A stretch of 33,962 nt of DNA, taken from NCBI GenBank assembly GCA_902797175.1, contig CADBRX010000181.1, forward strand, positions 1-33,962, given 5' to 3'. The notes beneath the pieces are model-generated. The model ran no database searches, was not told the origin of the DNA, and saw only the letters and a list, made by a program, of their open reading frames with translations. The DNA is from an uncultured Coriobacteriaceae bacterium (GTDB lineage Bacteria > Actinomycetota > Coriobacteriia > Coriobacteriales > Atopobiaceae). Positions 5,610 to 33,479 of this stretch are shown here, in pieces. Numbering within the stretch: position 1 is the first letter of the stretch; every line of letters starts with the position of its first letter. The position numbers were made by a program, and so were the translations under genes.

Positions 5610-6950
5610 CTACAGCGTGAACTCGGCAAACTGGCTGCCCGCCTCGGGCTCCTCGGGGTCGCCGGGCAGCGGTGCGTGGCTGAGGGCATCTGACCCCAAA
5701 AGCTCGGCTACGCTCAGCTGCGGGTTCTGGCAGAGGATGTCCAGCATCTCTATGAAGTCGCGGATGACCTCGCGCGGCGTGAGGTGCGTCTCCGACCCCA
5801 CGCGTCCGTACTCGAGCTGCAGGAACGTGACCAGGTCCTGCTCGCCCAGCGTGCGCGTATAGCCAAAGTAGCCCGCATGGATGTCGGCGAGCTTCTCAAC
5901 CAGCACCAGCAGCTCCTCGTAGGTGAGCGGCTCCAGGCGGATGACGGGAGCCAGCATGTCCAGGAGTCCCTCCTGCGCAAAGCGGCCCTGCGTCAGGCGC
6001 GAGCGCAGCGCCTCGTAGCTGTAGAGACCGCGCCGACGGTCCTCGATGGACTGCGGCGTGCCGCTCATGATGATGCCCAGGTGGTGCGCACGGCCCTGCA
6101 GCGTGTCGTTGTACATGGTCAAGATCTTCTCGTAGTTGTACTGGCGCGAGATGGCGTTGGGGATCTTGTACAGGTTGACCAGCTCGTCCACGAGCACGAC
6201 CAGGCCCTCGTATCCCGCCTGCACCAAGAACTCCGCAAAGAGCTTGAGGTAGTCATACCAGTCGTCATCGCCAATGACGATGTTGACGCCCAGCTCCTCA
6301 CGCGCCTCGCTCTTGGTGCGATATTCCCCGCGGAACCACTTGGTGACGTTTGCCTTGGTCTCGTCGTCACCCTCCAGGTGCGAGCGCCAATACATGGTGA
6401 GCAGGCGCGCAAAGTCGTAGCCATGCACCAGCTCCTGCAGCTGCGAGATGGTGCCCATGATGCGCGCCTCTACCTCGCGGGCAAATGCGGGGTCGTCCTG
6501 GGGAAGTCCGGTCGCCAACGCTACGTCCTGCTGCACGCCGCTGATCCAGCGGTCAAGGATGAGCGTGAGCGCACCTCCGTCTGGGCGGGTCTTGGTGGAG
6601 AGGTTGCGGATGAGCTCGCGATACGTGGCAAGGCCCTGGCCCTTGCCGCCCTGCAGCCTGCGTTCGGGGGAGAGGTCGGCGTCGCACACCACAAAGTTGC
6701 GGCCCATGGCGTGGTTGCGGATGGTCTGCAGAAGGAAGCTCTTGCCACTGCCGTACCGTCCGACCAAGAAGCGGAAGGAAGCCCCTCCATCAGCAACAAG
6801 GTCAAGGTCGTGGAGAAGGGCGCGGATCTCGGCCTCGCGTCCCACCGTCACATAGGGGAGCCCCACGCGGGGCACGACGCCGCCCTTGAGCGAGTTGATG
6901 ATGACCGCCGCGATGCGTTTGGGTACCTTGACCTGCTGTTCGTCCGTCAT
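5610..6950 (-). CDS. DUF2791-type P-loop ATPase (BREX-system ATP-binding domain family)
   Basis: This 446-aa protein has Walker A GRYGSGKS (residues 64-71), Walker B LVVLVDE (Asp255, Glu256) and a downstream MSGTPQSIEDRR region with an arginine-rich sensor-like segment. This matches the DUF2791/BrxD-type ATPase family, an AAA/STAND-related group found in BREX and related defence or stress loci. Its ATG overlaps the stop of the TerB gene as ATGA, so translation is coupled. In other bacteria this ATPase commonly sits with a TerB_N/TerB_C gene and a large DEAD/DEAH helicase; no helicase is present on either side here. The C-terminal tail is acidic. The ATPase call is strong; the biological role is inferred. 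Confidence 0.82.
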   Translation of the reverse strand: MTDEQQVKVPKRIAAVIINSLKGGVVPRVGLPYVTVGREAEIRALLHDLDLVADGGASFRFLVGRYGSGKSFLLQTIRNHAMGRNFVVCDADLSPERRLQGGKGQGLATYRELIRNLSTKTRPDGGALTLILDRWISGVQQDVALATGLPQDDPAFAREVEARIMGTISQLQELVHGYDFARLLTMYWRSHLEGDDETKANVTKWFRGEYRTKSEAREELGVNIVIGDDDWYDYLKLFAEFLVQAGYEGLVVLVDELVNLYKIPNAISRQYNYEKILTMYNDTLQGRAHHLGIIMSGTPQSIEDRRRGLYSYEALRSRLTQGRFAQEGLLDMLAPVIRLEPLTYEELLVLVEKLADIHAGYFGYTRTLGEQDLVTFLQLEYGRVGSETHLTPREVIRDFIEMLDILCQNPQLSVAELLGSDALSHAPLPGDPEEPEAGSQFAEFTL

Positions 6951-8782
6951 GCGCCCAGAATCTCCCTTACATCCTCAAGATAGTCCTCGACAAGGACCGG
7001 ATCGTCTCCCTCATACTCTATGACGGCGTCGCCCACCACGTCAAAGAGCTTCTCGTTAATGCTATCAATCACCAGCGACAACATCTGCCCCTCCGGGTTC
7101 GTGGGAGTTGCTGCCCCCGTGATCAGTGCATGTAACACGACCCGCTCAGCTGTCGTCAGCGCGAAAGCGGACTCAGGGAGCGCGTCGGGAGACTCCTCTC
7201 GCTGATCCCTTTCCGAGCGCACGCTTTCTGCGCGAGGAGGGTCGAGAGGGGAGTCTCCCGACGCGCTCCCTGAGTCCTCCCTCTCTTGTTCGGTGGGCAG
7301 TGCCTCCCGCTCCTCGTCGGTGAGCAGCGCCTCCTGCGTCACGGCGGCGGCCGCGCGTATGCCGGCTAGCTGCGAAAAGTCGATGGTGATGCGGCGTCTC
7401 TCGGCCTCGGCCTGCGCGGCCAGCAGCTCGTCGATGGCCTTGTCGATGATCTTCTCGACATAGGCGGCCACGGGTCGGTCCTTGAGGGGATAGGCATAGT
7501 TCAGGCGCGCACGAAGCCGCGCGTCCACGGCGTGCATGATGGTGCCCAGCTCGGAGCTGCGGCCGCTCGCGCTGCAGAGGAGGTGCTGCCGCCACCTGCC
7601 GTTGCGGCAGGTGAAGGTCTCTGTGGGGGTCAGGTGCACCACGCAGTCCGCATGGGGTTCGCTCTCATAGAAGACGGCCGAGGAGAACATGGTGTACACG
7701 TCCGCGGTGGGGCTGCCGTAGAGCCCCTCCACAAAGTCCGTCTTGCGGCGGCGAGAGCAGTGCGTTACGAGCGCGCGGAACGTCTCGCATGCCACGGTGC
7801 GCAGCTCGTCGGGGTGGTCCTTGAAGAGGCGGGCCCCGCATGGCTGATAGCTCGAGCATTCGTTGAGCGCGGTGAGAAGCGCCTCGTCAGTGGGGGTGTT
7901 ATGCGCCGGAAGGGCTCCCTGCTTTCGCTCGAGGCCGCCCTTTCTCAAGGCGTCCTCCTCCGCCTGGAGCAGCGTGAGCACCTGCTCCTGCTGGCCCCCG
8001 GAGCGCTCTGTCAGAAGCGCGGGATCAAGGTTGTGGTAGACCACGTAGTCGCGGATCCAGCGGCGCAGATATGACCCAAACGTGGATCCTGCGGCCGCGT
8101 CGGTCTTGCCAAAGGCATCCCTAAACGTCATGAGGTCGGCCAGGCCCTGCTCTCCAGGCACCGTGCCTACGCCGCAGAGCAGCTCGTATACGTGCAGGAA
8201 GGCAAACGAGAGCGGCGCCTCGGGCATCTCGCCTGCGCGCACGCGCGTCCGCCACGAAAAATAGCCGCGTAGCTGGGTGAGCGTCATCGAGCTATAGGTG
8301 GGAAAGTACTGTGAGTACGTGCCGTGAAACTCGAAGTCGTCCTCGAAGTCCTCCATGAGGCGTGCCTGCTCGTAGAAGAGGCGGTTTGCGGAGCGCGTGC
8401 CATAGGCCAGCGCGCCGCGCCAGGACGAGGCCGCCGCGTTTGGCTGCGCTCCGGCAAGCTCGCGCAGCCGGTAGTAGCGTTCGGGGATGTTTTCGTGGGC
8501 GAGCTGCTGCTCGCGGGCCACGGAGGGCATCCGGTCAAACGACATCTGCTGCTGTCGCGGCACCGGCTCTCGGGGAAAGGTGCGCTCGTCGGGCGTGTAG
8601 TCGGTCCGCGGGAGGCTGCTGAGCGGGGGACGGCCTTCACGATTTCTGTCCATCCGCTCGCGCAGCTGCTTGCCTGTCTGGATGATGGGCTGGTCAGAAT
8701 AGGTCCGCGAGGTGAAGGTGGCACTTTCGCGCAGGCGTCGGTCCCCCAGGAGCTCTTGCAAGATCTTGTCGATGTCCGGCAT
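6947..8782 (-). CDS. TerB N-terminal and C-terminal domain protein
   Basis: The 611-aa protein begins with a charged, Pro/Arg-rich disordered segment (residues 1-95). A TerB_N-like domain follows (about 100-300); its core MTLTQLRGYFSWRTRVRAGE plus FAFLHVYELLCGVG matches the family pattern of a helical Y/F-x-WR-x-R-x-GE repeat. A helical middle region is next, then a low-complexity Ser/Glu/Asp/Arg linker (about 490-540), then a TerB_C-like domain (about 540-611, from FALTTAERVVL). There is no signal peptide. These domains occur in predicted stress and phage-response systems around tellurite-resistance modules. The start at 8782 has GGGGAGG upstream. The linker DNA (7169-7277) is a near-perfect inverted repeat (see repeats). 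The ATPase gene follows with an ATGA overlap, and the promoter contains a LexA-like box. Confidence 0.75.
   Translation of the reverse strand: MPDIDKILQELLGDRRLRESATFTSRTYSDQPIIQTGKQLRERMDRNREGRPPLSSLPRTDYTPDERTFPREPVPRQQQMSFDRMPSVAREQQLAHENIPERYYRLRELAGAQPNAAASSWRGALAYGTRSANRLFYEQARLMEDFEDDFEFHGTYSQYFPTYSSMTLTQLRGYFSWRTRVRAGEMPEAPLSFAFLHVYELLCGVGTVPGEQGLADLMTFRDAFGKTDAAAGSTFGSYLRRWIRDYVVYHNLDPALLTERSGGQQEQVLTLLQAEEDALRKGGLERKQGALPAHNTPTDEALLTALNECSSYQPCGARLFKDHPDELRTVACETFRALVTHCSRRRKTDFVEGLYGSPTADVYTMFSSAVFYESEPHADCVVHLTPTETFTCRNGRWRQHLLCSASGRSSELGTIMHAVDARLRARLNYAYPLKDRPVAAYVEKIIDKAIDELLAAQAEAERRRITIDFSQLAGIRAAAAVTQEALLTDEEREALPTEQEREDSGSASGDSPLDPPRAESVRSERDQREESPDALPESAFALTTAERVVLHALITGAATPTNPEGQMLSLVIDSINEKLFDVVGDAVIEYEGDDPVLVEDYLEDVREILGA
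7169..7277. repeat. Perfect 28-bp inverted repeat inside the TerB gene
   Basis: Bases 7169-7196 are exactly the reverse complement of 7250-7277, with a 53-bp spacer; a further 5 bp nearly match after a 2-bp slip. The arms encode residues 503-511 and about 529-538 in different frames, in the linker just before the TerB_C domain. If the spacer were inverted, the reading frame after the first arm would be TCT CGC TGA, truncating the protein at residue 513. Confidence 0.9.
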
Positions 8783-15573: not shown

Positions 15574-16149
15574 CTATGCCTCGAGTGCCTTGGAGATGGG
15601 CTTGTAGACCAAGATGGTGATGACGCAGTTGAGGACGATCTTGAGCACATTGAACGGCAGCAGCGTGGGGACGATCATGGCGATGACGGCCTCGCGCGGG
15701 GCGCCCATGTAGATGGGGGTGACCACGATGTTGGCAAGAATGCAGCATACGAGGCAGATCACGCCGCCCACGACGAGGCCCGTGATGGCGCCACGCATGG
15801 TGGTGTTGCGCTGGTACACGAGAGACGCGGGCAGCACCAGCGTGAGCGTGGCCACGATGGCCATGAAGGTGCCATAGATGCCGCTTTCCGTTGCGAGATG
15901 CACCAGGTAGGGGAGGACCGACACGACGGCGCCCGTCGCGGGGCCAAAGGCAAACCCTGCCACCAGCGCCGCAATGGCGGAGGGGTCGTACTTGAGGAAG
16001 GTCACGCCCGGAAGGATGGGAAACTCGATGAAGAGCGTGCAGATGGCGGCAACGGCGCAGAAGAGCGCCGTGACGGCAATGCGCTTGGTGGACCAGCCCC
16101 CACCTGCGGTGGTGGAATGGGTGTCGTGACGTGTGGATGATGTGGCCAT
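15574..16149 (-). CDS. ribU: Riboflavin ECF transporter S component
   Basis: This 191-aa integral membrane protein has about six hydrophobic segments. It contains the RibU-type stretch FPILPGVTFLKYDPSAIAAL after the first helix; FLKYDPSDIP is characteristic of riboflavin-binding S components. An FMN riboswitch sits directly upstream and independently points to flavin as substrate. The ribosome site GGAGG (16157-16161 on the minus strand) is seven bases before the ATG and next to the 3' edge of the riboswitch. The first 20 residues are a polar extension without clear function. It is the first gene of ribU-ecfAA'-ecfT. Confidence 0.92.
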   Translation of the reverse strand: MATSSTRHDTHSTTAGGGWSTKRIAVTALFCAVAAICTLFIEFPILPGVTFLKYDPSAIAALVAGFAFGPATGAVVSVLPYLVHLATESGIYGTFMAIVATLTLVLPASLVYQRNTTMRGAITGLVVGGVICLVCCILANIVVTPIYMGAPREAVIAMIVPTLLPFNVLKIVLNCVITILVYKPISKALEA

Positions 16150-16160
16150 GAGGATGCCTC

Positions 16161-16282
16161 CGTTTCTTCCATCCGGACTGTAACCGTTGGTCCTGGAATC
16201 TCACCAGGTCGGCCGCCTCATTGCGGCTCGCGGACTTCGGGCCTTGCCCGTTACCGCCAGTGGGGAATTTCGCCCCGCCCTG
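16161..16282 (-). ncRNA. FMN riboswitch (RFN element)
   Basis: Read on the minus strand, the element runs from GGGCGGGGCGAAATTCCCCA through GGCGGTAACGGGC and AGTCCGCGAGCCGC to GGTGAGATTCCAGGACC and AACGGTTACAGTCCGGATGG. These are the conserved blocks of the RFN aptamer in the right order. It ends next to the ribU ribosome-binding site with no obvious terminator stem, so FMN most likely blocks translation initiation. Low FMN would allow riboflavin import. Confidence 0.95.
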
Positions 16283-16298
16283 AAACTATGTGTCCATG

Positions 16299-22939: not shown

Positions 22940-23650
22940 ATGCCAACTAACGTACAGGAACAGCTGGTGGCCTGCACCGATCGCCGGTCGCGTCGCACAC
23001 GCATCGCGCTGCGCGATGCCCTCGCGGCCGAGATCAAGGCGACGGGCGACCTCTCGCAGGTGACGGTCACGGCGGTCACCGACCGGGCCGACGTCACGCG
23101 TCGCACCTTCTATTCCCACTATCGCGACATTCCCGCCCTGGTCCGCGGCATTGAGGACGAGGCGATCGCCGAGATCCGGCCCTACGTCTCGCGCATTGCG
23201 CAGACGACCCTCGACGAGCTCGAGGATGCCCTCAAGTCCTTCAATCCGTGTCCTGGGTCAATCGAGCTGCTCGAATACTTCAAGGAGAACGGCGCACACC
23301 TTTCCGCACTGCTTGGGGATGGCGGCGACCCGGCCTTCTCCAAGCGCCTGAGCGACATGGTTCGCGAACAGGTGCATGACCGCGTGGTCGAGGGCCTGGT
23401 CGTTCCCCATGCCGAGACCATCGTCGAGTACTACCTCACCTTTGCCATTTCGGCTGCCGTCGGGGTGCTTGTGCGGTGGCTCACGACGGGCATGCAGGAA
23501 CCCGTGGGCATCATGGCACGCATGGTGACTGCGCTCATGTTCGTCCGCCCCGGAGACCTTTACGGCAGACCCATCGGCTTTGACATCCCGTCCCTCGCTC
23601 GGACGTCTGCCTCCCAACGAAAGGAGCCCTTCAATGGTTCGGACAACTGA
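22940..23650 (+). CDS. TetR/AcrR-family transcriptional regulator
   Basis: This 236-aa protein has an N-terminal TetR helix-turn-helix (residues about 15-70) with the pattern VTVTAVTDRADVTRRTFYSH, in which TFYSHY is the typical end of the recognition helix. A C-terminal helical ligand or dimerisation domain follows, ending in a basic tail. The start at 22940 has AGAAAGG upstream; a GTG five codons earlier is less likely. The 3' end overlaps the next gene by 17 bp, so the regulator and the dehydratase-activase protein are probably one operon controlled through the dyad at 22888-22922. Ligand unknown. Confidence 0.88.
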   Translation: MPTNVQEQLVACTDRRSRRTRIALRDALAAEIKATGDLSQVTVTAVTDRADVTRRTFYSHYRDIPALVRGIEDEAIAEIRPYVSRIAQTTLDELEDALKSFNPCPGSIELLEYFKENGAHLSALLGDGGDPAFSKRLSDMVREQVHDRVVEGLVVPHAETIVEYYLTFAISAAVGVLVRWLTTGMQEPVGIMARMVTALMFVRPGDLYGRPIGFDIPSLARTSASQRKEPFNGSDN

Positions 23651-26600
23651 CTCGCAGGTTGCGCAGAGCCAAGTGACGCCCAGCATGCTTCTGCGGCAGG
23701 ATGGCGCTGAGCTGAGTCCTGCCAGGCCTGCTGACTTTCGCCATGCCGACCTGCGTCTGGGAATCGACGTGGGTTCAACTACGGTCAAGCTTGCCGTCAT
23801 CGACAGCCACGACCACCTGGTCTACGCCAACTACCTGCGTCACCATACCGACATCCGCGCGACGGCGCGCGACCTCTTCGAGCGGGCCCAGCGCGTGCTC
23901 GGCGATGCGCGCATGCGCGTGTCCATCACGGGCTCGGGCGGCATGCTGCTCGCAAAGTGGCTTGACCTCGAGTTCGTTCAGGAGGTCATCGCCTCAAAGC
24001 GCGCCGTCGAGGTGCTCATCCCCCAGACCGATGTCGCCATCGAGCTGGGCGGCGAGGATGCGAAGATCATCTACTTTGACAACGGCATCGAGCAGCGCAT
24101 GAACGGCACGTGCGCGGGCGGGACGGGCGCCTTCATCGACCAGATGGCCTCCCTGCTCGAGACGGACGCCGCGGGCCTGAACGAGCTGGCCAAGGGTGCC
24201 ACGCACATCTATCCCATCGCCAGCCGCTGTGGCGTCTTCGCCAAGTCCGACGTGCAGCCCCTGCTCAATGAGGGTGCTGCCCCGGCAGACATTGCCTGCT
24301 CCATCCTGCAGGCGGTGGCCAACCAGACCGTCTCGGGCCTCGCGTGCGGACATCCCATCCGCGGCTATGTCGCCTTCCTGGGTGGTCCGCTCCAGTACCT
24401 CTCCGAGCTGCGCACGCGCTTTTACGAGACGCTCGGCCTTGACGAGGAACACCGCATCATTCCCCAAAACGCCCACCTCTTTGTGGCGACGGGTGCCGCC
24501 CTTGCGGGCGAGACGGACAAGCGCGTGACGTTTGCCCAGGTCATAGAGGCGCTCGCTGACCTCAAGGACACGCAGGGCTCGGAGGTCGCACGACTCGACC
24601 CGCTCTTTGCCTCCGACGAGGAGTACTATGCCTTCAAGCGCCGTCATGACCGTGAGGTCGTGCCGCGTGGCAACCTCTCCGACTATCGAGGCCGCGTGTT
24701 CGTTGGCCTCGACGCCGGCTCCACCACCATGAAGGCGGCGGTCGTCGGCGAGCAGGGGCAGCTCCTCTATACCTGGTATGGCAACAACAACGGTGACGTC
24801 CTGGGCACGGCCCGCAAGATCATGGACGACCTCTACGACAGCCTGCCCGAAGGCGTGACCATCGGTCACGTGACCACCACGGGCTATGGCGAGGCCATTC
24901 TCATCGAGGCGCTCCAGGCTGACTCCGGGGAGATCGAGACCGTGGCGCACCTGCGTGGCGCCCAGGCCTTCGTTCCCGATGTCCAGTTCATCCTCGACAT
25001 CGGCGGACAGGACATGAAGTGCCTGCAGGTTGCCGACGGCATCATCGAGCACATCTCCCTCAACGAGGCGTGCTCCTCTGGATGCGGCTCGTTCATCGCG
25101 AGCTTTGCCGACTCCATGGGCATGAGCGTGCAGGACTTTGCCGCGACGGCCATTCATGGCGAGCATCCCGTCGACCTGGGCAGCCGCTGCACCGTGTTCA
25201 TGAACAGCCGCGTCAAGCAGGCGCAGAAGGAGGGGGCGACCATCGGAGACGTGGCCGCGGGCCTGTCCTACTCCGTCATCAAGAACGCCCTCTTCAAGGT
25301 CATCAAGCTGCGCGACTACGAGCAGATCGGCACGTACGTGGTGGTCCAGGGTGGCACCTTCATGTCCGACGCCACGCTGCGTGCCTTCGAGCTGCTGACG
25401 GGTCGCGAGGTCATCCGTCCCGACATCGCGGGCAGCATGGGCGCGTATGGCGCTGCGCTCCTTGCGCGCGAGCGTGCGGGCGCTGATGGCGTCTCCACGC
25501 TGCTTTCGCGCGAGGAGATCGACCACCTCCAGGTCAGGCAGACCAAGGTGCACTGTGGCCGTTGCTCCAACAACTGCCTGCTCACGGTCAACGACTTTGG
25601 TGGCGGTCGGCGCTTTGTCACGGGCAACCGCTGCGAGAAGGGCGCGGGCACCAAACGCAACAAGGTCGAGGCGCCCAACCTCTTCAAATTCAAGAACGAG
25701 CTGCTCTTTGACCGTCCCTGCCTTGATCCGAGCGAGGCGCCCCGTGGCACGGTGGGCATCCCCCGCGCGCTCAACATGTACGAGAATTACCCCTTCTGGC
25801 ATGCCTTCTTCACGCATCTGGGCTTCTCGGTGGTGCTCTCCGACCAGACGACCAAGAAGACCTACGAGGCGGGCATCGAGTCCATGCCGTCTGAATCGGT
25901 CTGCTACCCGGCCAAGCTCAGCCACGGGCACGTGATGAACCTCCTTGCCAAGGACCCCGACTTCATCTGGATGCCCTGCGTGCGCTGGGAACGTACCGAA
26001 GACGAGACGACGACCAACCACTACAACTGCCCCATCGTCATGAGCTATCCGCAGGCGCTGGAGCTCAACGTCGACGAGCTTGCCGCACCCAACGTCGAAT
26101 ACCTGTGCCCGTTCCTTCCCTACGACAAGAAGGGCGAGCTCAAGCGGCGCCTCTATGAGGTGGTCTCCGAGCAGCGTGAGGCTGATGCCGCTGCGGGCAA
26201 GGGTCGCTTCCGCGGCGCGCACATCACGCGCGCCGAGATCGACGAGGCGGTCAACGTGGCCTGGGAGGCAGACCTCGCCTTCAAGGACGCCATCCGCAAG
26301 AAGGGTGAGGAGACGCTCGCCTGGATGGAGGAGCATGACGTCCATGGCATCGTGTTGGCGGGCCGCCCCTATCACAACGATCCCGAGATCAACCACGCTA
26401 TCCCCGAGCTCGTGAACGGCTTTGGCTTTGCGGTGCTCACCGAGGACTCCGTGGCGCACCTGATGGAGGTCGAGCGCCCCATCCGCGTGGTCGACCAGTG
26501 GATGTATCACAGCCGTCTGTATCGCGCCGCCCGCCTGGTGGCCAGTCGCAACGACCTTGACCTCATCCAGCTCAACAGCTTTGGCTGCGGTCTCGACGCC

Positions 26601-28148
26601 CTGACGACCGACCAGGTCCAGGAGATCCTCGAGGCGAGCGGAAAGATCTACACCCTGCTCAAGATCGACGAGGTGTCCAACCTGGGTGCTGCGCGCATCC
26701 GCGTGCGCTCGCTCATGGCCGCCCTCAAGGAGCAGCGGGCTGACCTTGAGCGCAAGGTTGCTGCTGACTCCTCGGTTTCCGGAACGGTGCGCGTCCCCAT
26801 CCAGCGCCGTGCCGCATCGACCGCCTTCCCCAAGGTGCGCTACACCAAGCAGATGCAGGAGCAGGGCTACACCATCCTCGCGCCCCAAATGTCGCCCATC
26901 CACTTTGACTTGGCCCAGGCACTTCTGAGGTCGCAGGGCTACAACGTCGTGCTGCTTCCGTCCGTCGACCACGGTGCGGTTGAGGCGGGCCTCAAGTACG
27001 TCAACAACGACATCTGCTACCCGTCCATCCTGGTCACGGGGCAGATCATGAACGCCATCGAGAGCGGCAAGTACGACCTTTCGCGCACGGCGGTGCTCAT
27101 CTCACAGACCGGCGGCGGCTGCCGTGCCACCAACTACATCGCCCTCATCCGCAAGGCGCTCAAGGAGGCGGGGCACCCCGAGGTGCCCGTCATCTCGCTT
27201 TCCGTTGCGAGCAATCTCGACGAGAGCAATCCCGGCTTCTCCATCAAGGACCCCGCGTTTCTCATGCATGCGCTGTACTGCGTCCTCTTTGGTGACCTCA
27301 TCATGCAGTGCCTGTATCGCGTGCGTCCGTACGAGGCCGAGAAGGGCTCTGCCGACCGCCTCTACGACGCCCTCATGTCGCGTGCCTGCACGCAGATTCC
27401 GCATGCAAGCAGGCGCACCTTCTATCGCCTCTGCAAGGACACCGTCGAGGCCTTTGATGCCCTGCCGGTGACAAACGACCGCTCCAAGCCGCGCGTCGGC
27501 GTGGTGGGGGAGATTCTGGTCAAGTATCACCCCACGGCAAACAACCAGGTCGTTCGTGTCATCGAGTCCGAAGGCTGCGAGGCAAACGTCCCTGGCCTCA
27601 TGGACTTCTTCCTCTTTGGCCTGACCAACAACAGCAGCCTCAAGGACGAGCTGGGAGCTCCCAAGCGCAAGCTCATGACGCATGCCGCGGCCATCTCGAT
27701 GATTCATGCCCTGCGCGAGCCCATCAACAAGATGCTGCGCGACTCTGAGCGCTTTGAGCCCTACGGCAACATCTACGACCTGCAGAAGAAGTCCTCCGAG
27801 GTGCTTTCTTCGTGCAACACCATGGGCGAGGGGTGGTTGCTGACGGCCGAGATGCTGGAGCTGGTGGAGTCCGGCACGCCCAACATCGTGTGCGCTTCGC
27901 CCTTTGCGTGCCTGCCCAACCATGTCGTGGGCAAGTCCGTCATCAAGCGCATCCGCCAGCTGCATCCCGAGAGCAACATCGTCGCGGTCGACTATGACCC
28001 CGGCGCGTCGGAGGTCAACCAGCTCAACCGCATCAAGCTGATGATCTCGGTGGCCAAGGAGAACTGGCGTCAGGGCAAGGGCTTTGTGTTCGGGCCCGAT
28101 GACGATCCGTTCGAGCGCCTGAAGGAGCAGCTCGCCGCCGCTCGATGA
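23634..28148 (+). CDS. Acyl-CoA dehydratase activase / 2-hydroxyacyl-CoA dehydratase-related fusion protein
   Basis: This 1504-aa cytoplasmic protein has two BadF/BcrA-type ASKHA ATPase domains. Domain 1 has GIDVGSTT with Asp45, Cys160 in NGTCAGGTG and Cys199 in SRCGVF. Domain 2 has GLDAGSTT with Asp360, Cys480/Cys484 in CSSGCGS and Cys519 in SRCTVF. The paired cysteines match those that hold the bridging 4Fe-4S cluster in dehydratase activases. Next comes a Cys-rich knuckle (Cys641, 644, 648 and 667; HCGRCSNNC, NRCEKG), then the large DUF2229/dehydratase-like region. The family is thought to do ATP-driven low-potential electron transfer; its substrate is unknown. Start 23634 has AAGGAG (23621-23626). 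It overlaps the TetR gene and its stop lies in a long palindrome. Confidence 0.9.
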   Translation: MVRTTDSQVAQSQVTPSMLLRQDGAELSPARPADFRHADLRLGIDVGSTTVKLAVIDSHDHLVYANYLRHHTDIRATARDLFERAQRVLGDARMRVSITGSGGMLLAKWLDLEFVQEVIASKRAVEVLIPQTDVAIELGGEDAKIIYFDNGIEQRMNGTCAGGTGAFIDQMASLLETDAAGLNELAKGATHIYPIASRCGVFAKSDVQPLLNEGAAPADIACSILQAVANQTVSGLACGHPIRGYVAFLGGPLQYLSELRTRFYETLGLDEEHRIIPQNAHLFVATGAALAGETDKRVTFAQVIEALADLKDTQGSEVARLDPLFASDEEYYAFKRRHDREVVPRGNLSDYRGRVFVGLDAGSTTMKAAVVGEQGQLLYTWYGNNNGDVLGTARKIMDDLYDSLPEGVTIGHVTTTGYGEAILIEALQADSGEIETVAHLRGAQAFVPDVQFILDIGGQDMKCLQVADGIIEHISLNEACSSGCGSFIASFADSMGMSVQDFAATAIHGEHPVDLGSRCTVFMNSRVKQAQKEGATIGDVAAGLSYSVIKNALFKVIKLRDYEQIGTYVVVQGGTFMSDATLRAFELLTGREVIRPDIAGSMGAYGAALLARERAGADGVSTLLSREEIDHLQVRQTKVHCGRCSNNCLLTVNDFGGGRRFVTGNRCEKGAGTKRNKVEAPNLFKFKNELLFDRPCLDPSEAPRGTVGIPRALNMYENYPFWHAFFTHLGFSVVLSDQTTKKTYEAGIESMPSESVCYPAKLSHGHVMNLLAKDPDFIWMPCVRWERTEDETTTNHYNCPIVMSYPQALELNVDELAAPNVEYLCPFLPYDKKGELKRRLYEVVSEQREADAAAGKGRFRGAHITRAEIDEAVNVAWEADLAFKDAIRKKGEETLAWMEEHDVHGIVLAGRPYHNDPEINHAIPELVNGFGFAVLTEDSVAHLMEVERPIRVVDQWMYHSRLYRAARLVASRNDLDLIQLNSFGCGLDALTTDQVQEILEASGKIYTLLKIDEVSNLGAARIRVRSLMAALKEQRADLERKVAADSSVSGTVRVPIQRRAASTAFPKVRYTKQMQEQGYTILAPQMSPIHFDLAQALLRSQGYNVVLLPSVDHGAVEAGLKYVNNDICYPSILVTGQIMNAIESGKYDLSRTAVLISQTGGGCRATNYIALIRKALKEAGHPEVPVISLSVASNLDESNPGFSIKDPAFLMHALYCVLFGDLIMQCLYRVRPYEAEKGSADRLYDALMSRACTQIPHASRRTFYRLCKDTVEAFDALPVTNDRSKPRVGVVGEILVKYHPTANNQVVRVIESEGCEANVPGLMDFFLFGLTNNSSLKDELGAPKRKLMTHAAAISMIHALREPINKMLRDSERFEPYGNIYDLQKKSSEVLSSCNTMGEGWLLTAEMLELVESGTPNIVCASPFACLPNHVVGKSVIKRIRQLHPESNIVAVDYDPGASEVNQLNRIKLMISVAKENWRQGKGFVFGPDDDPFERLKEQLAAAR

Positions 28149-28210
28149 CTCACAAGGGTCCCACCCCTTTGAGTCAATTTGAACTCAAAGGGGTGGGACC
28201 CTTGTGAGTC
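28147..28210. repeat. Perfect 28-bp palindrome shared by two convergent gene ends
   Basis: Bases 28147-28174 are the exact reverse complement of 28183-28210, with an 8-nt loop. The TGA stops of both convergent genes (28146-28148 plus, 28211-28209 minus) lie at its edges. It can act as a strong bidirectional hairpin, but there is no U-run; it may instead be a REP-like dispersed palindrome. Confidence 0.9.
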
Positions 28211-29291
28211 AGAGCGCACGCGTAGACTCGAGAAGCTCGTCTGCGACCTTGACGATGAGGTCAGCCTCCTCAAGAAGCTCGAGGTCAAAGGCCTCTTCGA
28301 CCATGTGTCGTCCCCAAAGAGCACCGAGGATGTTTCCGGCTATGGAGGCGGTCGAGTCCGAGTCGCCCTGGTGATTTGCGGCACAGCGGAGCGCCGCGGC
28401 TACGTCGTCTGTGTGCGCAAGGGCAGCATAGAGCGCGATGAGAAGCGCCTCGTCGCCCACCCAACCCTCACCAAGCTCGTGGATGCAGGAGAGGTCATCT
28501 GTCTTCTCGTGGGAAAGGCCGAGTTCGATGGCGCGCAGCATGCGGTCACGGAGCTCCCCTGCCTCTTCCCACTCGCCAAACGCATGGGCAATGACCCCTG
28601 CCACACCCCGTGCCGTCATCGCAAGCGTTTCCTGGGCATCGTGGGCCGTCGTCCCGCTCGTGTTGCAGAGCAACGCGACAAGACCTGCAAGGGCGGCCGC
28701 CGGCAGCCAGCCCATGGGATGTCCGTGCGTGAGCGCGGCAGCGCGTGCCCCCATCGCAAAGGGGTCGAGGTCATCGCAAAGGCTTGCGGAAAGGCCGATG
28801 GGCGCGACGCGCATGACGCCGCCACAGCCTTTCGAATGATTGACGGGTCGCTCGAGCGTGCCGCCGTCCTGGCTTGACCGGATGGCCGAGAGACAGGTGC
28901 GGCCTGGTGCGCGCAGCTCGTGCAGCGCTCGCTGGCTAGAGAGGCGCATATTTGGGTGCTCGGGGTCGTCCATGCGGGAGGTGTCGCCTTGCGTGCCAAG
29001 CCATTCCCGGTACGCAAGCCAGATGTCCGACGGCGCGGGAATGCGGCCCCTTTCCATGCCATGCATGAGTCCCTCGGCGGTAAAGAGCGTCATCTGCGTG
29101 TCGTCAGAAAAGTGCGCCACGTCCGCGTGCGTCACCTCAGCCGCCTGCGCAAGCGTCCGGATGCCCTGCTGCCCAAACTGCGAGAAGATCTGTCCTTCGT
29201 CCCAGAACTCTATGGCGTATCCCAGCGCGTCGCCCGCCGCCCCGGCGAGCAGGCATCCTTCAAAGCGGTCTCTCAAAGTCGCGCAATCCAT
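28209..29291 (-). CDS. ADP-ribosylglycohydrolase family protein
   Basis: This 360-aa protein has the DraG/ARH fold signature: GCLLAGAAGDALGYAIEF at the N-terminus, the metal-binding FSDDTQMTLFTAEGL, GCGGVMRVAPIGL, and the C-terminal HQGDSDSTASIAGNILGALWG. The last two supply the second set of Mg ligands. The enzymes remove ADP-ribose from proteins or small molecules. The start at 29291 was chosen for AGAGAGGGG just upstream and because it begins with the family N-terminus; an ATG at 29318 lacks a ribosome site. No ADP-ribosyltransferase is visible nearby, so the substrate cannot be inferred. Confidence 0.93.
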   Translation of the reverse strand: MDCATLRDRFEGCLLAGAAGDALGYAIEFWDEGQIFSQFGQQGIRTLAQAAEVTHADVAHFSDDTQMTLFTAEGLMHGMERGRIPAPSDIWLAYREWLGTQGDTSRMDDPEHPNMRLSSQRALHELRAPGRTCLSAIRSSQDGGTLERPVNHSKGCGGVMRVAPIGLSASLCDDLDPFAMGARAAALTHGHPMGWLPAAALAGLVALLCNTSGTTAHDAQETLAMTARGVAGVIAHAFGEWEEAGELRDRMLRAIELGLSHEKTDDLSCIHELGEGWVGDEALLIALYAALAHTDDVAAALRCAANHQGDSDSTASIAGNILGALWGRHMVEEAFDLELLEEADLIVKVADELLESTRAL

Positions 29292-32105: not shown

Positions 32106-32206
32106 GCAAAACTACACAGCTCTGTTCTACTTTTGAGTCTTGAGCCTACAAAATGCCAGTTGCTAGGCAATTCAAGCGTAAAAACAGAACAGAGCTGTGT
32201 AATTGC
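32106..32206. repeat. Palindromic element, left copy
   Basis: TACACAGCTCTGTTCT (32113-32128) pairs perfectly with 32186-32201, and the pairing extends outward to GCAAAA/AATTGC. The interior holds a second imperfect stem (CTTGAGCCTA with TAGGCAATTCAAG) and the motif CCAGTTG. It also serves as a hairpin after the amidohydrolase gene. It is a diverged copy of the element at 33376-33479. Confidence 0.85.
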
Positions 32207-32266
32207 TAAGGGATGCGTGAGAGTATTCAGCCGTGCTCCGATCTCTAACGTCTAAGAAGAACTACC

Positions 32267-33364
32267 ATGCACGCATTTCTTTCATTTCTTTCTGCATGCG
32301 AAGCCCTTAGGTCTCTCGAAGGACCTCAGCAAACGTGGCCTCCAACCTCGCGCAAGCTTCCTCTTGAGGGAGACTGCGTCTCCAATCAGCGCGGATTCAA
32401 AACGCTTGTCCGCAGTGTTGACTTACAAGGCTTTGGCGTTCATACCAGTCCTGTCGACTTGCTCGTACCCGCGCAGGCCATGCGCAGCCGTGGCAAAGAT
32501 GCCCGTTTCCATGTGTGGAGTGGCTCCGTGCCCCAGGGGGCGATGATTCGACTGTCAAAAGAGTTGCTGCTCAGCGGGCCTGAACTAACGGTCGTGCAGT
32601 ATTGCGGTGCACAAAGTAAGGTCGAGTTCTTATTAGATGAGCATGCTCGTGCCGTGCGAGCTGAGCGCGATACGCTTGCTATGCTTGGCTTGGACGAAGA
32701 GCCCGTGATAGACGACCCACGTGCGCGTGACTCCATTGAGCGGTTGGTCGCTGCCGTCGTGTTGGCGTGCGAGTTTGCAGGCACCTATCGTCTTGGCGTT
32801 GGTGGTGAAGAGACCCAGTATCATATGGCGCCACTTATGGATGAGGAAAGCTTTGGGCGGGTGATCTCTGGCGTCGAGGGAACGGCCAACAAAACGCGTG
32901 CGGCGGAAGTTGCGGGACTCTTTTACGAAGGCTCTGCCTCTCCCATGGAAACCGCGCTTGTCTTGATGCTCACGCTGCCCGTTAACTTTGGCGGACTTGG
33001 CCTTCCGAGGGCTGAGCTCAACAAGTCGGTGGACGTGTCGGCCGTACGGGGAACGCTATCCGATAGAGACGAGGTCACGCCTGACCTGATGTGGCGTTGG
33101 GCGCGCGTTGCTGTCGAGTACGATAGCGCCGAGTTCCACGAGCAGCTCGGATCGCGGCAACTTGAGGAAGACGCTCGCCGTTCGAATATCCTCACGACGC
33201 AGGGATACAGGGTGCTTCACGTAACTCCCGGTGTGGTGAGGACGGTCAATGACGTGGAGCTCTTTGCGCGTCAGATTGCCCATCTTCTAGGAGTCACGCT
33301 CAAGGCACCAAGTGAGATTCAGGCCCTTAGGAGGCGGAGGCTGTTCACGTTGCTTATGAGTTAA
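32267..33364 (+). CDS. Hypothetical protein with DUF559/Vsr-like nuclease C-terminus and AbiEi-like middle
   Basis: In this 365-aa protein, residues 270-342 (PDLMWRWARVAVEYDSAEFH, then EEDARRSNILTTQGYRVLHVT) match the DUF559/Vsr-type PD-(D/E)xK pattern: VAVEYDS as the E-x-D strand, a following H, the D-x-x-R helix and GYRVLHVTP. The middle part (PVDLLVPAQAMRSRGKDARFHVWSG) resembles the segment preceding such domains in AbiEi-like proteins. Codon use is visibly more AT-rich and less biased than in neighbours, suggesting transfer. It is flanked on both sides by copies of a ~100-bp palindromic element. No partner toxin gene is next to it. The nuclease call is by pattern only; activity and role are inferred. 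Confidence 0.6.
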   Translation: MHAFLSFLSACEALRSLEGPQQTWPPTSRKLPLEGDCVSNQRGFKTLVRSVDLQGFGVHTSPVDLLVPAQAMRSRGKDARFHVWSGSVPQGAMIRLSKELLLSGPELTVVQYCGAQSKVEFLLDEHARAVRAERDTLAMLGLDEEPVIDDPRARDSIERLVAAVVLACEFAGTYRLGVGGEETQYHMAPLMDEESFGRVISGVEGTANKTRAAEVAGLFYEGSASPMETALVLMLTLPVNFGGLGLPRAELNKSVDVSAVRGTLSDRDEVTPDLMWRWARVAVEYDSAEFHEQLGSRQLEEDARRSNILTTQGYRVLHVTPGVVRTVNDVELFARQIAHLLGVTLKAPSEIQALRRRRLFTLLMS

Positions 33365-33375
33365 GGAACGCTCAT

Positions 33376-33479
33376 GCTTAAACTACACAGCTCTGTTCTA
33401 TTTTTTGGAGTGAGGAGGGAATAAGCCCAGTTGGCAAGAATTCCTCGCTCAAAAATAGAACAGAGCAGTGTAGTTTTGC
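33376..33479. repeat. Palindromic element, right copy
   Basis: The 22-bp arms 33384-33405 and 33451-33472 are complementary except for one position, and pairing resumes in GAGTGAGGA/TTCCTCGCTC. The core TACACAGCTCTGTTCT and an internal CCCAGTTGGCAA match the left copy at 32106-32206. Its outer end and the outer end of the left copy form a 24-bp terminal inverted repeat with one mismatch. Confidence 0.85.

Follow-up and report, generated by a model that had tools for sequence, protein, structure and literature searches.

The sngA gene in the window, by which we mean the whole stretch of 33,962 nucleotides analyzed here, carries a long inverted repeat within its protein-coding sequence, and the best explanation, to which we give an even chance, is that this quasi-palindrome lies in a disordered linker of SngA and is maintained by the copying of one arm onto the other through template switching. 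It provides a clear example, in a bacterium, of a palindrome in protein-coding sequence whose two arms have changed in sequence and yet stayed complementary in at least three species. With it one can test whether mutational copying alone can maintain a hairpin over long periods, thereby mimicking the covariation that is usually taken as proof of a selected RNA structure. Flips within populations, if they occur, would also give an anti-phage system an inversion switch.

A palindrome within a Shango gene

The sngA gene (6947-8782, minus strand) encodes a 611-residue protein of a Shango-type anti-phage system, with Pfam matches to TerB_N and TerB_C and a PADLOC match to SngA (E = 4.7e-75). The next gene on the same strand, sngB (5610-6950), encodes a BrxC/D-like ATPase of 446 residues that matches Pfam BrxC_BrxD and PADLOC SngB (E = 8.9e-192), with an NCBIfam BrxD match far under its cut-off. 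The sngA stop and the sngB start overlap in an ATGA (6947-6950, minus strand), as the initial annotation had stated. Together with an intact SngC helicase gene on a separate contig (G000:C172:1078-3399, locus L101, E = 3.5e-272), the genes for a TerB protein, an ATPase and a helicase described for Shango (PMC10250203) are all found in this genome, and on these matches sngA and sngB belong to that system, with anti-phage activity predicted. As SngC matches were obtained in 18 of 18 genomes of the genus, the Shango gene set looks like a genus-wide core trait rather than a recent island. This genus-wide occurrence differs from the described system (PMC10250203), as does the unlinked position of sngC in the species that carry the palindrome. 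Placement of sngC apart from sngAB was also observed in some other members of the genus; sngC lies near sngA on one contig in G002, G003, G009, G012, G016 and G017. No report of a palindrome in Shango was found in the literature searched.

The inverted repeat consists of two perfect 28-bp arms on the minus strand, the first in gene direction at 7250-7277 and the second at 7169-7196, separated by a 53-bp spacer (7197-7249), which confirms the geometry given in the initial annotation. The arms reach 32 nt if one mismatch is allowed. The spacer is partly self-complementary, with an apical stem of GCGCA/TGCGC, and the whole 109-bp element shares 80% identity with its reverse complement, indicating that the spacer is partly palindromic as well. 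In dinucleotide shuffles of the window, the arm was never present twice. Relative to shuffled sequence, the hairpin folds with z = -8.2 as RNA and z = -9.9 as single-stranded DNA, and relative to synonymous-codon shuffles that preserve the protein, its folding still has z = -6.7. The inverted repeat is real and would not be expected from chance alone, and it is present as a single copy in the window's own genome.

AlphaFold2 predicts that SngA residues 495-538 (7169-7300, minus strand) are disordered, with pLDDT below 50, and that they are flanked by ordered parts on both sides. The palindrome corresponds to residues 502-538 of this predicted linker. The repeat had been placed at the boundary before TerB_C, but it sits inside the Pfam TerB_C match (residues 455-606), where, according to the model, it occupies a disordered insertion separating two folded parts of this domain.

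In order to place this element against the genomic background, palindromes were scanned in a 547-kb sample from G000 (the window's genome) and G006, with reading frames judged by position only. Within this sample, sngA was the sole homology-confirmed gene with palindrome arms longer than 24 bp and a spacer longer than 20 nt. Other high-scoring palindromes in long reading frames had short loops and look intergenic, lie near frame ends, or fall in likely spurious frames. That no second gene in the 547 kb carries such a palindrome counts against arm copying as the explanation, which would have to invoke either a single rare founding event or selection specific to this locus.

Distribution and turnover of the arms

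The comparison set contained 18 genomes of the genus, one per species, in which the nearest SngA orthologues of G000 are those of G001 (83% identity), G011, G006, G004 and G010. Perfect arms are found in the same SngA linker of G006 (27 bp) and G011 (28 bp), each around a 61-bp spacer, and the linker of G004 contains a decayed quasi-palindrome. A tree of SngA with the linker removed clusters G000, G001, G004, G006 and G011 (support 100/97) and leaves G010 outside. These five species form a clade, and each of the four members that could be tested carries the quasi-palindrome, with perfect 27-28 bp arms in three of them (G000, G006 and G011). The initial annotation had counted a lack of the repeat in orthologous linkers toward refuting its switch, but these linkers keep one in spite of their divergence. 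In the fifth member, G001, the contig stops inside the linker, past a left arm resembling that of G011, and a search for the downstream half of the gene did not recover it in that assembly. In the G011 linker (locus L007), a scaffold gap of N lies where the right arm ends on its outer side, and the same 25 nt appear before and after the gap, which indicates that the repeat caused difficulty in assembly.

The self-complementarity of the G000, G004, G006 and G011 linkers was not matched by any of 500 synonymous or 500 codon shuffles. The linker of G010, the nearest outgroup, is only marginally above its shuffles and forms no such hairpin. A comparable linker hairpin was also absent in the ten further members of the genus that were assayed; in G013, where the folding covered just a short section of the linker, any perfect repeat in the gene is shorter than 11 bp. 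Among the genomes compared, the palindrome is confined to the five-species clade, a distribution that implies either its presence in the ancestor of the clade or repeated origin within it.

The arms themselves have turned over. Those of G000 are unrelated in sequence to those of G006 and G011, and the left linker likewise shows no relation between G000 and its sister G001, even though the proteins are 83% identical. G006 and G011 differ at two sites in each 27-bp arm, in every case opposite a site that differs in the other arm, and there are no unpaired differences. All four of these changes are synonymous, falling in Pro and Gly codons on the left and in Ala and Pro codons on the right; at the fourfold sites of sngB, 41% differ between the same two species. 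The codon register is the same in all four species, with third positions facing third positions, which allows a paired change to be silent. These alignments indicate that arm pairing is maintained during sequence turnover, a conclusion drawn from just four informative species that include one close pair. Similarity of the right arm, considered as a pointer to which arm served as template in G000, gave no signal.

Most simply, the quasi-palindrome would have arisen in the ancestor of the five-species clade, and the complementarity of its arms would have been kept by copying one arm onto the other, most likely through replication template switching at a hairpin formed by single-stranded DNA. The same template switching may occasionally invert the spacer. 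The linker would tolerate such bursts of change through its lack of structure and through the facing of third codon positions. Template switching between inverted repeats homogenizes arms and inverts spacers in coding genes (PMC8604942), and it creates and maintains hairpins (PMC8794818). Short spacers are favored in this process (PMC8604942), so the 53-61 nt spacers observed here count against it, an objection mitigated by their self-folding, which leaves a loop of roughly 7 nt. That copying is the mechanism and that the element has no regulatory function are both inferred. The sngA element shares concerted arm homogenization, possible spacer inversion and multi-nucleotide coding changes with template-switch quasi-palindromes (PMC8604942; PMC8794818), but its arms are longer (27-28 bp), its 53-61 nt spacer is self-folding, it persists across bacterial species, and the mechanism is here a proposed one. 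Long perfect inverted repeats within protein-coding genes are also found in the mitochondria of Nematomorpha (PMC6649704), although those are numerous, reach 284 bp and occupy conserved protein regions, in contrast to the disordered linker of a single gene.

Alternative explanations

The main rival, which we consider rather unlikely, is that the hairpin has been selected as a nucleic-acid structure. It might act as an mRNA hairpin that slows ribosomes at the domain boundary, set the SngA/SngB ratio, or serve as a binding site for an RNase or another protein; the same roles could be played on an antisense RNA, or the structure could act as a DNA cruciform. The folding far above synonymous shuffles and the pairing that outlasts sequence turnover, with paired synonymous changes, would be expected from such selection. 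On the mRNA strand, however, A-C mismatches outnumber G-U ones (in small numbers), and as selection on an mRNA should favor G-U over A-C on the coding strand, this opposite trend argues against an mRNA role. The mRNA hairpin that the initial annotation had offered as its alternative is further weakened by better folding of the antisense strand in all four species. Decay of the hairpin in G004 and its absence beyond the clade also speak against a selected structure. An intrinsic terminator was rejected, as no T-run stands beside the stem on either strand, and a known RNA family was rejected as well, with no Rfam match at the palindrome.

A phase-variable intragenic inverton, in which a flip of the 53-bp spacer would convert full-length SngA (Shango on) to a 513-residue product (off), appears improbable to us. 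Intragenic invertons, reportedly described by Chanin et al. in 2024, likewise have inverted repeats within a gene and a flip that would recode or truncate it. In G000, inversion does give a frame ending ...GDSSR*, with a TGA after residue 513, reproducing the stop proposed at the outset, and it would uncouple sngB. As the TerB_C match spans the palindrome, this stop would delete its final folded part but not all of TerB_C. The inverted frame stays open in the other three species, however (G004, G006 and G011, the last readable up to its scaffold gap), so that the predicted truncation applies to G000 alone among the four. The repeats are kept in orthologues, but the arm sequences are wholly different between lineages, leaving no shared recombinase site. 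Assemblies of two relatives, G001 and G011, break at the repeat, which would fit a flipping element but would also be expected from a 28-bp repeat alone at a short k-mer. The invertase that the initial annotation suggested seeking elsewhere may have candidates in five tyrosine recombinase matches in the G000 genome, all on other contigs; no serine recombinase of the resolvase family was found in this genome, which is 82% complete, and the genes listed for the window include no evident recombinase. With truncation predicted for G000 only, a conserved truncating switch is unlikely, and the sngA element differs from intragenic invertons in that truncation is not conserved, no dedicated invertase was found in these searches and the flip is hypothetical.

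The orientation of the spacers is also suggestive of inversion. Those of G000 and G004 are nearer to the reverse complement than to the forward form of the G006 and G011 spacers (pair-preserving shuffles, two-sided P about 0.03, for short and partly palindromic spacers and with several comparisons made), and the short tail of G001 resembles the forward form. The evidence that lineages carry the spacer in opposite orientations is weak; if they do, the clade has seen more than one inversion of the spacer. Opposite orientation is also predicted by template switching. A further reading, which we regard with considerable doubt, is that of a diversity element that repairs itself and flips repeatedly, whose inversions within populations would switch Shango off in some species and merely swap linker peptides in others.

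That a mobile palindromic element, of the kind found in Rickettsia, was inserted into the coding sequence is very unlikely. The location in a variable, disordered, hydrophilic linker and the many intergenic palindromic repeats in the genus would fit such an origin, but there is no second copy in its own genome or the genus, and the G006 element has only short partial matches elsewhere; a mobile family is largely refuted by this restriction to a single locus. No viral contig contained the arm sequence. An assembly or library artefact is barely credible: the G000 assembly is a fragmented and apparently metagenome-assembled draft (82% complete, 194 contigs), but independent assemblies of other species share the architecture, with other arm sequences and open reading frames.

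Additional structured elements in the window

Several other features of the window were recorded. Two homologous hairpins of about 100 bp (32106-32210 and 33375-33479), with arms of about 25 bp and 45-nt spacers, share the motif CTACACAGCTCTGTTCTA, which is absent elsewhere in the genome, and flank an orphan 365-residue open reading frame (32267-33364) that matches neither Pfam nor NCBIfam. An FMN riboswitch (16157-16291, minus strand; Rfam RF00050, 110 bits) lies directly upstream of a 191-residue open reading frame on the same strand (15574-16149). Finally, a 29-bp perfect hairpin with an 8-nt loop (28146-28211) stands at the end of the 23580-28148 open reading frame, where it is terminator-like, and belongs to a class of palindromes with a AGGGGTGGGACCC core that recurs elsewhere in the genome sample.
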